Part shown: in pieces, positions 23,857-26,345 of the stretch
Layout of the letters: each line of letters starts with the position of its first letter
How positions within the stretch are numbered: the first letter of the stretch is position 1
NCBI GenBank assembly: GCA_016283615.1
Contig: JAEENG010000020.1
Coordinates: 1-48,935 of the forward strand
Direction: 5' to 3'
DNA: 48,935 nt
DNA from: Treponema sp.
GTDB lineage: Bacteria > Spirochaetota > Spirochaetia > Treponematales > Treponemataceae
Notes under the pieces: generated by a model
Seen by the model: only the letters and a program-made list of their open reading frames with translations
Told to the model about the DNA's origin: nothing
Database searches by the model: none
Program-made: the position numbers and the translations under genes

Positions 23857-24420
23857 ATGAAAAAAATAATCGCAGCAGTTTGCGCAATCAGCGCTGTTTT
23901 ACTTCTTGCATCTTGTGGTTCAACAAAAACAACAGCAGCCACTCAGGCAGAAGAATTGAACCTTCCGGCATGGGTTCTCGAAGGTAAACGCGACAATACA
24001 GGTATTTATGCAGTAGGCGCCGGAAAACTTTCCAACCTTACAAATTCGCTCAAAATGGCCAAAGCACAGGCCCGTGTTGAACTTGCAACAACCGTAAAGG
24101 CAAATGTTCAGGCTGTAACACAGACTCTCGTTGACGACCAGGGAGCCACAGGCGACAGACAGGACCTGGAAGCACTCACAGAAAACGCACTCATCCGCGT
24201 TGACACAATTCTCCAGGGCTCAGAACAGGTTGACCAGTACATCGCAAAGGACGAAACAGTTTATGTTCTGATGTACCTTCCATACAGCACAATGGTCACT
24301 GAGCTGAATAAAAATCTTGAAGAAACAAACAAGAAATTCAACCGCACATCTTCTGCCGCATACACAGAGCAGAAAATGGCAGAAGCATACGAAAAATACT
24401 TCTCGCAGAATAAAAATTAA
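23857..24420 (+). CDS. LPP20-family lipoprotein
   Basis: A 187-residue lipoprotein with signal peptide ending LLLASC (Cys20). The mature part begins after a short Thr/Ala tether and holds the LPP20-type fold: LPAWVLEG, GIYAVGAGKLSN, then a long helix in which KMAKAQARVELA resembles the family signature. The last 30 residues are charged and helical. Family members are outer-membrane or surface lipoproteins in Helicobacter and spirochaetes, with no known enzymatic activity. A strong GGAGG seven bases before the ATG and a good promoter suggest high expression. It is monocistronic, with the palindromic element 24432-24664 after it, and its role is unknown. Confidence 0.85.
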   Translation: MKKIIAAVCAISAVLLLASCGSTKTTAATQAEELNLPAWVLEGKRDNTGIYAVGAGKLSNLTNSLKMAKAQARVELATTVKANVQAVTQTLVDDQGATGDRQDLEALTENALIRVDTILQGSEQVDQYIAKDETVYVLMYLPYSTMVTELNKNLEETNKKFNRTSSAAYTEQKMAEAYEKYFSQNKN

Positions 24421-24431
24421 CCCTGCCGCAT

Positions 24432-24664
24432 TTTGACACAGGGGCACACAGCATAAAAAACTTTCTTTTATGAAAGAGTCTCCCGGTCGATTCCGGACTT
24501 TACGAAACCGCTCGATATCTTCGCTACATACAGAGCGGGCCCTGAAACTATTAACGTTTGCCGCTAAAGCGGCAGGCCCGCTCTGAATGTTTTCAAAAGC
24601 CCGGCCTCTCCCTCGCGCCTCTTTCGAATCATTAATTTTTAATCTCTGTGCCCGGTGTGTCAAA
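24432..24664. repeat. Large imperfect palindrome, possible MITE-like element
   Basis: The ends are imperfect inverted copies: TTTGACACA followed by GGGGCACA on the left (24432-24448), and TGTGCCC followed by GGTGTGTCAAA on the right (24648-24664). Further in, both sides share A-rich segments and GAAAGAG in inverted order. The centre is a perfect 11-bp stem, CAGAGCGGGCC (24531-24541) with GGCCCGCTCTG (24575-24585), enclosing an inner TGCCGC/GCGGCA hairpin. No reading frame in it looks real. It fills the gap of about 300 bases between the lipoprotein and pseudokinase-like genes. Confidence 0.6.
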
Positions 24665-24686
24665 GTTGTCCGTAATCAATTTTTCC

Positions 24687-24715
24687 TTGTCATTCCGTTT
24701 TCGTATGTATAAATT
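24687..24715 (+). promoter_or_regulatory. Promoter of 24722 gene, leaderless type
   Basis: TTGTCA (5/6) at 24687-24692, a 17-base spacer, TAAATT (4/6) at 24710-24715, and six bases to the ATG. An overlapping TATAAA at 24708-24713 is an alternative -10 with a 15-base spacer. AGGA touches the ATG and is too close to act as a normal Shine-Dalgarno. Confidence 0.5.
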
Positions 24716-24721
24716 ATAGGA

Positions 24722-25567
24722 ATGAGCACACTTGTAAAAATCACCGATGACGTAATTCAACTTTCAAGTTCATTAAAAGAAGCAAACTTCGGCCGTACTG
24801 ACCTCGGAAATTCAATCGACGAAAAAGGCTATGTTATTACCGTAAATGATGACCTTTCCATCGGCTGTGAGGAATGGGCCTTTACAAATACAAAAATCGC
24901 TGACGACGGAATAGTTTATTTTGAAGGAAAAACTCCGTTCAGTTTTACAGGCACTACTCTATTCAATCTGCTCGAACAGAATGACGACGCTGCAAAAAAG
25001 GCAAAAAAAGACAGCATGCTCGCCATTACATATCTCTTAAAAGAAGAAAAAGCCTTTGGCGGCGCCATGGGAATTTTATATTCAGAAGTGGACAGCAAAA
25101 GCAGAATAATCGCGCTGCCGGCAAATCTTTTTGAACGCTGCGCCCGCAATTCATCTGAATACGGACAGAACCAGGGCATTTTTGTTAACCGCGCACTTAC
25201 CGGCCAGAAAGCAAGTCTTTTTACCAGAAGTGTCATCGCCTACAAGGCTTTGAGCGGCGCCTACCCTTTTACAGAAACCGACCTCGAAAAACGCCAGAAC
25301 GATATTACAGACTTTAATTTTATCCCGCTTCAATATATGGTCAGCGGAATCGACATCGAACTTGCAGATTCAATCAACGCAGGACTTAAAACCGTAAATC
25401 CCGTCAAAGAACGCAGGACAAAAAAATTAAAATCCGAAGACAGGGCTTTGATTCAAATTGAACAGAACCTGAACAGGGCTAAAAGTTTTTCTGTAAAAGC
25501 CTTTGTTGAACAGCTGCAGAAAAATCCGCCTTCACCAGATGCTGAGTTCAACAGAAAAAAAAAATGA
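24722..25567 (+). CDS. Degenerate protein-kinase-like protein, unknown function
   Basis: A 281-residue protein that I cannot name with certainty. The middle of the chain reads like a eukaryotic-type Ser/Thr kinase C-lobe that has lost its catalytic residues: ALPANLFE in the place of the APE motif, a stretch FTRSVIAYKALSGAYPF matching the subdomain IX-X pattern (usually ending YE-L-G--PF), then RQNDI. No HRD, DFG or glycine-rich loop is seen, so a pseudokinase is the best inference. It ends in a Lys-rich tail encoded by a run of ten A. The following gene starts inside it in another frame, has no ribosome-binding site, and encodes a membrane protein. Loss of one A would join them into a kinase-like, transmembrane and extracytoplasmic protein. 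Confidence 0.7.
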   Translation: MSTLVKITDDVIQLSSSLKEANFGRTDLGNSIDEKGYVITVNDDLSIGCEEWAFTNTKIADDGIVYFEGKTPFSFTGTTLFNLLEQNDDAAKKAKKDSMLAITYLLKEEKAFGGAMGILYSEVDSKSRIIALPANLFERCARNSSEYGQNQGIFVNRALTGQKASLFTRSVIAYKALSGAYPFTETDLEKRQNDITDFNFIPLQYMVSGIDIELADSINAGLKTVNPVKERRTKKLKSEDRALIQIEQNLNRAKSFSVKAFVEQLQKNPPSPDAEFNRKKK

Positions 25568-26345
25568 ATTCATCAGAAAGCAGAAGCGCCGGATTAAGAC
25601 AAAAAGATTTCTGGCCCGAAACAAAAACCGCATCATAGGAACTGCAGCAGCGCTTGTAATTGCTGTAAACGTAATTCACAGTTTTAATAAAACAAACGGT
25701 CTTCTTGCAACTTCGCTAGGGCTTACTGCAGAAGAAACAGCACGCACGTTTTACACAGGCATCCACAAGGCCGACGTTCCGCTCCTGCAGGAAATTGCAA
25801 AGGGCTCAAAGATGAAAAATGTAATCAACATTACGGCAGGTTTTTACGTTACAAACAAACAGCGCGTCATCATGGACGAAAAGGAAGGTACCCTCTCTCC
25901 TGTTGAATTTTTACGGAAAAAAGGCGAAACAGATTACTGGCAGTATGGAATCAGCGGCCTCACACTCGACGGAACTCCATACCCTGCTGCTTTTGAATAT
26001 CCCCGCCGGAACGACAAAAAAGCTCCTCTAAAAACAGAAAACGGAGAAAAGCTTATAAAAGGCCAGACAAAACAGATTCAGGCTTCATACAATCTTATTC
26101 ACTACGACGGGGCAAACGTAATTGCCGTAAACAAGGTAACAGAAACACTGACCCTCAAATGGAACGGAAAGCGCTGGATCGTCCGCGACGTTGAAGGCAA
26201 ATCCAGAAACTCTTTGTGGAAGGTTAAATCTTACAAGGCTGACATAACAGGCGCCCTCGAAGAAAGCGGCGGCGACCTCGTAAAAGCCTGCGATATTTTA
26301 CGCCTAAAATACGACTTTATTCCGCGCGCTGACGAACTTCAATAA
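25539..26345 (+). CDS. Single-pass membrane protein, unknown function, overlapping the pseudokinase-like gene
   Basis: A 268-residue protein from ATG 25539. The first 30 residues are highly basic (RKQKRRIKTKRF), a membrane segment follows (RIIGTAAALVIAVNVI, about 38-55), and then an extracytoplasmic domain that contains an NTF2-like pattern (ARTFYTGIHKADVPLLQEIAKG) and beta strands such as ETLTLKWNGKRWIVRDVEGK. The start overlaps the preceding gene by 29 bases in the +1 frame and no Shine-Dalgarno is present. This raises the possibility that the protein is normally made as a fusion through slippage at the A10 run (25555-25564). If translated alone, it would have the orientation N-terminus inside, C-terminus outside. 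Confidence 0.7.
   Translation: MLSSTEKKNEFIRKQKRRIKTKRFLARNKNRIIGTAAALVIAVNVIHSFNKTNGLLATSLGLTAEETARTFYTGIHKADVPLLQEIAKGSKMKNVINITAGFYVTNKQRVIMDEKEGTLSPVEFLRKKGETDYWQYGISGLTLDGTPYPAAFEYPRRNDKKAPLKTENGEKLIKGQTKQIQASYNLIHYDGANVIAVNKVTETLTLKWNGKRWIVRDVEGKSRNSLWKVKSYKADITGALEESGGDLVKACDILRLKYDFIPRADELQ
25555..25564 (+). other. A10 homopolymer at the junction of two overlapping genes
   Basis: Ten consecutive A residues directly before the TGA of the pseudokinase-like gene. With nine A the frame continues through NRKKNEFIRKQKRR into the membrane protein. It is a candidate for transcriptional slippage or phase variation, or a sequencing error. Confidence 0.7.

Follow-up and report, generated by a model that had tools for sequence, protein, structure and literature searches.

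An imperfect palindrome of 233 bp at positions 24432-24664 of the window (the whole 48,935-nucleotide stretch of Treponema sp. DNA analysed here) raises the question of what kind of element it is, how it came to this site, and why it can fold so well. The initial annotation, made from the sequence alone, had proposed a non-autonomous mobile element or decayed MITE, or else a structured 3' UTR of the gene before it (23857-24420), which matched the LPP20 lipoprotein family. None of the frames after the element matched a Pfam or NCBIfam family; two of these overlap (24722-25567 and 25503-26345, + strand), probably due to a frameshift in the assembly or in the gene, and the homologue in relatives was mostly one open frame of ~530-640 aa. 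The element itself had been described as lacking a coding frame, which needs the qualification that a 147-aa frame (24220-24663, - strand), antisense to the end of the lipoprotein gene, mechanically spans it.

The ends, flanks and centre were indeed inverted copies of each other, with repeats at 24432-24440/24656-24664 (9 nt, 100%), 24442-24459/24636-24653 (18 nt, 83%), and 24526-24541/24575-24590 (16 nt, 94%). As had been anticipated, the stretch was predicted to form one long imperfect hairpin as either RNA or DNA, and folded far better than shuffles: RNA folding of the + strand from 24400 to 24700 gave -89.9 kcal/mol (z -5.39, equalled by 0/100 shuffles), and single-stranded DNA folding of 24432-24664 gave z -6.36 for the + strand and z -8.04 for the - strand (equalled by 0/200 shuffles on each). 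The hairpin TGCCGC-TAAA-GCGGCA, reported as perfect and central, is perfect but displaced from the geometric centre by a preceding one-sided bulge of 17 nt, and the fold is branched because of a side hairpin at 24510-24524. The features of the window copy are as follows.

24432..24664, + strand: whole element, an imperfect palindrome (inverted repeats and DNA fold as above).
24439..24458, + strand: putative left terminal inverted repeat (TIR) remnant CAGGGGCACACAGCATAAAA, compare CAGGGCAAACGCATTATAA; only 2/500 letter shuffles aligned locally to the TIR as well.
24469..24629, + strand: structured core, an end-to-end match to covariance model R1 (151.5 bits), this copy being one of the 37 from which R1 was built.
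24481..24489, + strand: conserved 5' loop strand TCCCRGTCG (alignment A1), opposite 24608-24617 with fixed mismatches.
24510..24524, + strand: side-branch hairpin with its loop around a GATATC-type palindrome (A1 columns 43-57), the two closing pairs present in 37/37 copies.
24526..24541, + strand: inner stem 5' arm, an inverted repeat (helix 5, 97.7% of cells paired).
24542..24558, + strand: one-sided 17-nt bulge, strongly conserved, family consensus CTTGWAACTATNTACGT.
24559..24574, + strand: terminal hairpin TGCCGC-TAAA-GCGGCA (helix 6, 100% of cells paired).
24575..24590, + strand: inner stem 3' arm, an inverted repeat.
24608..24617, + strand: conserved 3' loop strand CTCCYTCGCG (A1).
24636..24655, - strand: putative right TIR remnant (reverse complement CCGGGCACAGAGATTAAAAA); 12/500 letter shuffles as good.

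A DNA search placed the element at one site in its own genome and found matches in 12/97 genomes (own included), all 12 of one genus, and in 0/38 genomes of other genera. We retrieved 40 of the 43 sites in other genomes, aligned 37 of the resulting 41 copies (window included) by sequence with MAFFT to give A1, and built R1 from this alignment. In the window's own genome R1 found two copies (151.5 and 114.5 bits), and so holds a further copy of the kind the initial annotation had suggested looking for; a third match (21.7 bits, E 0.066) was left out of the count. With up to 15 candidates scored per genome, the 160-nt core was present in at least 110 of 196 genomes of the genus. The 2.8-Mb genome G113, for which 150 of 1303 candidates were scored, held at least 56 matches of 119-173 bits, none between 62 and 119 bits, and nine weaker ones, two of which were opposite-strand shadows. 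An exact core pattern matched 101 stretches in named genome records; the 80 of these that were listed came from Treponema or uncultured Spirochaetaceae and were MAGs almost throughout; Treponema ruminis RU1 was also among them and gives a named strain that carries the element. At the same locus in the sister genome G173 the core was 97.5% identical and the left outer arm was absent. We rejected carriage as phage or plasmid cargo, as one copy searched against plasmids and one against phages gave no match at E 1e-5 and the exact pattern was absent from viral contigs.

The surroundings of the copies did not bear out a 3' UTR of the lipoprotein gene. With a crude open-frame caller (frames of at least 70 aa) we placed 30 of the 56 G113 copies: the flanking frames were divergent for 11, same-way for 14, and convergent for 5, and a frame overlapped the core in 9 of the 30, four of these frames being long (264-420 aa). 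A scan that sees loops of 3-8 nt found no terminator-like site in window positions 24250-24850, and with this result and the 5/30 convergent and 11/30 divergent placements we also set aside an intrinsic terminator. A link with the downstream gene was likewise rejected, since among its 30 best homologues the element lay beside the gene in the window and G173 only. Separately, one G113 copy (L104, G113:C1:587481-587641) lies just upstream of a distant homologue (31% identity) of the window gene at 24722, and an element in G214 is also near a distant homologue of that gene; the two cases may reflect chance or a favoured site.

Complete elements were found in relatives, above all in G051 (contigs of RUG13083), whose copies are younger (nearest neighbours 86-97% identical, 30 full rows) than those of G113 (74-95%, 55 rows). 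The full element is ~216 bp, starts with CAGGGCAAACGCAT, and has the inverse at its other end. One G051 subfamily has the outer arms CAGGGCAAACGCATTATAA and their inverse, and other G051 copies (e.g., L199, L202, and L271) have different arms that are not CAGGG, e.g., around CAAATGTCGAGTTTTG. The 18-mer AGGGCAAACGCATTATAA occurred at 82 sites in G051 with up to 3 mismatches, versus 3 for a reversed control. Among the loci retrieved we counted 22 TIR-bounded elements (20 in G051, L254 in G113, and L200 in another MAG) of 78-293 bp, some of them shortened. Perfect 10-bp direct repeats abutted CAGGG...CCCTG in 10 of the 22, all in G051; the remaining 12 had between 0 and 9 matching positions out of 10 (five had 0-3), the G113 element having 8. 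Over all 22 the mean duplication score was 5.73 of 8 (best of five offsets) versus 2.18 when shuffled, and 0/2000 shuffles scored as high. Three elements of 216-217 bp with perfect duplications (L352, L354, and L365) carry the whole core (137-142 bits); across 24 G051 loci R1 found nine cores of 131-146 bits, the rest being shortened, cut or rearranged. We also found an empty site, one G051 copy being missing in G122 with the flanks conserved on both sides; this copy's duplication is imperfect (7 of 10).

Insertion sequences (ISs) of the ISAs1 family typically end in CAGGG and duplicate 8-10 bp of target. Several in this genus share the ends of the element. Two ISs in G184 (L409 and L429) have the ends CAGGGCAAACGCATGTAAAAA and exact 10-bp duplications (AACTCTTTGG and GCTTGACAAT), and two others (L408 and L405) have CAGGGCAAACGCATTATA on one side with no duplication seen. 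The transposases of L409 and L408 matched NF033564 (ISAs1) with E-values of 1.9e-102 and 1.5e-107, and no frame in L405 reached 280 aa. A G051 copy of the element matched these ISs over 20 bp (100%, L405), 18 bp (100%, L408) and 35 bp (80%, L409). The element thus shares the terminal CAGGGCAAACGCAT and the 10-bp target duplication with ISAs1-family ISs (NF033564) and differs from them in having no transposase, in its length (~216 bp versus 1.2-1.3 kb), and in its interior, which apart from the ends gave short, weak matches only. Many copies, ISAs1-type ends, and 10-bp duplications common to the element and an IS of the genus together identify an ISAs1-type MITE, in line with the mobile-element proposal of the initial annotation. 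The palindrome in the window is very probably an old copy of this MITE whose core has been kept as folded DNA or as a fold of both strands. An ISAs1 transposase would have moved the element in trans by recognising its ends; in the lineage of the window, transposition would lie far back, the ends having since decayed and the target duplication having faded from view. What has been kept in the core may be a folded DNA strand or a both-strand fold, and the fold would most likely aid replication or amplification of the element rather than serve neighbouring genes.

The distribution of the presumed mover speaks against this account. The transposase marker PF13808 was present in 24 of 196 genomes, and 11 of these 24 were element-positive versus 110/196 overall, so we see no association of PF13808 with the element. 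It was absent from the window's own genome and from G113, G035, G045, G050, G051, G057, G102, G195, G214, and G230, and Treponema ruminis RU1, a complete genome that carries the element, was not among the 24. Short-read MAGs often lose repeated ISs. In its favour, G184 and G213, which both have such an IS, had at least 15 element matches each. No kb-long autonomous element with the same ends was seen in G051, the 82 sites including no such TIR spacing in an assembly that is 85% complete.

In the window copy, CAGGGGCACACAGCATAAAA begins at 24439, 30 nt outside the core on its left (29 in full-length G051 copies), and CCCGG on the right ends at 24655; both match the TIR loosely. A target-site duplication, which the initial annotation had suggested looking for, is not visible here: the flanking ten bases, CATTTTGACA and TGTGTCAAAG, form no direct repeat, and TTTGACACA/TGTGTCAAA instead prolongs the palindrome. 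The second copy in the same genome has little TIR (41/500 and 489/500 shuffles as good), and a TIR match on both sides within 6 mismatches was found in 4 of the 40 copies of our first set. Among 91 copies outside G051, a 9-of-10 direct repeat occurred in 3, versus 5.6 from mismatched flanks, that is, no duplication above control, and in 33/111 copies the arms in the copy's own flanks were more complementary than the 95th percentile for mismatched flanks. From these two results we take it that ends decay and cores persist, a pattern that is partly detection bias because R1 finds copies by their core. The word decayed, as first applied to the window copy, suits its ends and not its core.

The same core is also carried with a second kind of ends. 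In G057, four of seven aligned copies (L029, L033, L043, and L044) have both ends 2-4 mismatches from CACGGAAATCAATTTT, whereas 0/33 copies from other genomes had such ends within 5 mismatches. CACGGAAATCAATTTT is the end of another IS, found in G158, G181, and G146, with an ISAs1 transposase (3.2e-81), and the four copies of this IS that we examined had exact duplications, of 9 bp in three and 10 bp in one.

Pairing is what is conserved in the core, which with the two copies in the window's own genome is the opposite of the single, unpaired-but-conserved sequence that the initial annotation had named as counting against a mobile element. In A1, 94.9% of cells held standard pairs and 256 cells had changed on both sides, versus 68.3 with partners shuffled (0/500 shuffles reached this); pairing fell to 35-48% when partners were slid by 1-3 columns, a comparison that favours the structure since it was derived from A1 itself. 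G113 alone had 360 two-sided changed cells versus 106.5 shuffled, in an alignment fitted to R1, which A1 was not. In 11 pairs of close G113 paralogues, unpaired positions differed at 124/748 and paired positions at 62/1012.

Since G.U, unlike A.C, is tolerated in an RNA helix, we compared the counts of G.T and A.C. Over all columns the ratio G.T:A.C was 30:24 in A1, 31:44 in A2 (G113 copies), and 128:70 in A4, and without one hairpin column with a standing T.G it was 12:24, 23:44, and 79:70, respectively. As a control, the 30 best SRP RNA loci of the genus (29 distinct rows) gave 81:2; dropping the column richest in G.T brought this to 58:2. Fisher tests against 81:2 gave 3.6e-14 (12:24), 1.8e-18 (23:44) and 9.9e-15 (79:70), the cells not being independent. 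This balance, so different from that of SRP RNA, suggests that the core is a DNA fold or a fold needed on both strands, with imperfect strand symmetry, as G.T exceeds A.C over all columns of A1 and A4. Nor is the core a blindly perfected palindrome, given the conserved bulge CTTGWAACTATNTACGT and three fixed mismatches (opposed columns 13/151, 15/149, and 16/148, Watson-Crick in 0/37 copies).

Several sites are shared between genomes, and at two of them the element lies in opposite orientations (L025 versus L099 and L059; L063 versus L110). Counted as double Watson-Crick/other double/single, stem changes were mostly single in the three closest pairs (L052-L064, 0/0/2; L066-L162, 0/0/1; L006-L061, 2/0/3) and mostly two-sided in the diverged pairs (L059-L099, 4/0/0; L025-L059, 7/1/1; L025-L099, 11/1/1; L063-L110, 6/2/1; L017-L131, 7/2/2; L060-L142, 10/0/1). 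In four pairs, shared-site copies were 0.80-0.88 identical to each other and 0.87-0.90 to their best paralogue; since they are no closer than paralogues, change in place and replacement or gene conversion are equally likely, and we do not take these sites as proof of vertical descent, for which they are weak. We excluded L062/L112 and L046/L067 as shared sites, the element being on different sides of a gene.

A possible if doubtful extension of the MITE reading is that the core forms an independent module under selection as folded DNA, acting for the element or the host through its branched DNA hairpin. Such a module would have outlived its carriage by the ends of two ISAs1 lineages as well as decayed ends, and would have been turned or replaced at fixed sites.

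For the core only, we think it somewhat unlikely that the selected form is an RNA folding from both strands (a two-way terminator, an insulator, or an RNase III site) that would make insertion near genes harmless. Consistent with this, the closing stem is in many copies preceded by an A-run and followed by a T-run, the mismatches are nearly strand-symmetric, and copies occur between frames of every orientation; yet the window copy has no terminator-like site (loops of 3-8 nt scanned), 11/30 copies lie between divergent frames, and an RNA fold of both strands would by itself leave the conserved bulge and the fixed mismatches unexplained.

Also for the core only, the paired changes might be mutational, arising when template switching copies one arm onto the other, the fold itself being under no selection. 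This could produce two-sided Watson-Crick changes with few G.T intermediates, and arm-to-arm exchange could give the in-place inversions at the two shared sites. We nevertheless consider it unlikely, as blind correction should erase the three opposed mismatches (Watson-Crick in 0/37 copies) and the conserved one-sided 17-nt bulge, and single-sided changes outnumbered double Watson-Crick changes in the closest paralogues (34 versus 13 in 11 G113 pairs; 20 versus 10 in 12 G051 pairs).

A structured non-coding RNA transcribed from one strand, as a 3' UTR element or acting in trans, and copied around genomes would account for the massive covariation, the conserved loop motifs and the branched fold. 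We regard it as very improbable, however, and rejected an RNA family on the G.T:A.C counts (31:44 in G113, with no preference for G.U, against 81:2 for SRP RNA) and the lack of an Rfam match, there being none in the window or, with a cut-off of E 1, in seven copies; the copies moreover show no preference in gene orientation and have TIRs and target duplications. The case is a warning to those who hunt for RNAs, as a DNA element can also produce overwhelming covariation; counting G.T against A.C helps to tell the two apart. REPs are not known to leave a 10-bp duplication. A REP/RAYT system is hardly credible as the mover and is refuted as far as these assemblies tell, for although the complement reads GTAG and then a small palindrome (GTAGC beside the side hairpin on the - strand), and GTAG tags have been described for REPs (PMC3733652), the Y1 transposase PF01797 was found in 61/196 genomes (36 element-positive, versus 110/196 overall) and is missing from the high-copy genomes (none in G113, G035, G050, G045, G102, G195, G214, or G230) and from the window's own genome.

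Among known systems, integron attC sites are imperfect palindromes in which DNA structure rather than sequence is conserved, and the Treponema core may be analogous in this respect; it differs in being found as dispersed copies with the target duplications of a DDE element. ERIC, YPAL, and NEMIS are bacterial MITEs with palindromic interiors. So are QMITE2 of Coxiella and Chunjie of Geobacter, as described in PMC10969869. Like the Treponema element, all of these are short and gene-less, with terminal repeats and the whole element foldable. The Treponema core, unlike these, is branched, has fixed unpaired positions, shows two-sided pairing change across many genomes, and is carried with two kinds of ends. 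The main text of PMC10969869 has no occurrence of ISAs1 or Treponema, and we found no description of this family among the titles and abstract beginnings listed from the open-licence PMC literature. The IS605 stem-loops beside lipoprotein genes in Borrelia, as given in PMC2775950, are also transposon stem-loops near lipoprotein genes of a spirochaete, but they belong to another transposase class, and the Treponema element adjoins a homologue of its downstream gene in just two cases of the 30 best (above). MITEs are usually described by their ends, whereas in this ISAs1-type MITE conservation lies in the interior; should selection act on DNA folding, the many copies of the family would be an experiment of nature on the handling of long hairpins by cells.

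Other repeats were seen beside the element. At L127 and L157, pairs of copies face each other 41-43 nt apart and have arm sequence in common between them. In several element copies of G051 the 5' half has given way to, or is interrupted by, a second dispersed palindromic repeat (GGGAACGACGGCG...GAGCATTTTGAGTGA...GCAGCTATGCTGC), noted at L041, L047, L230:5679, L234:1498, L261:3218, L266:215, and L270:3627. Another dispersed repeat (...GGCTGCCAATTTCGCG...) closely follows the element in copies from G035, G045, and G050 (L016, L023, L027, and L030).
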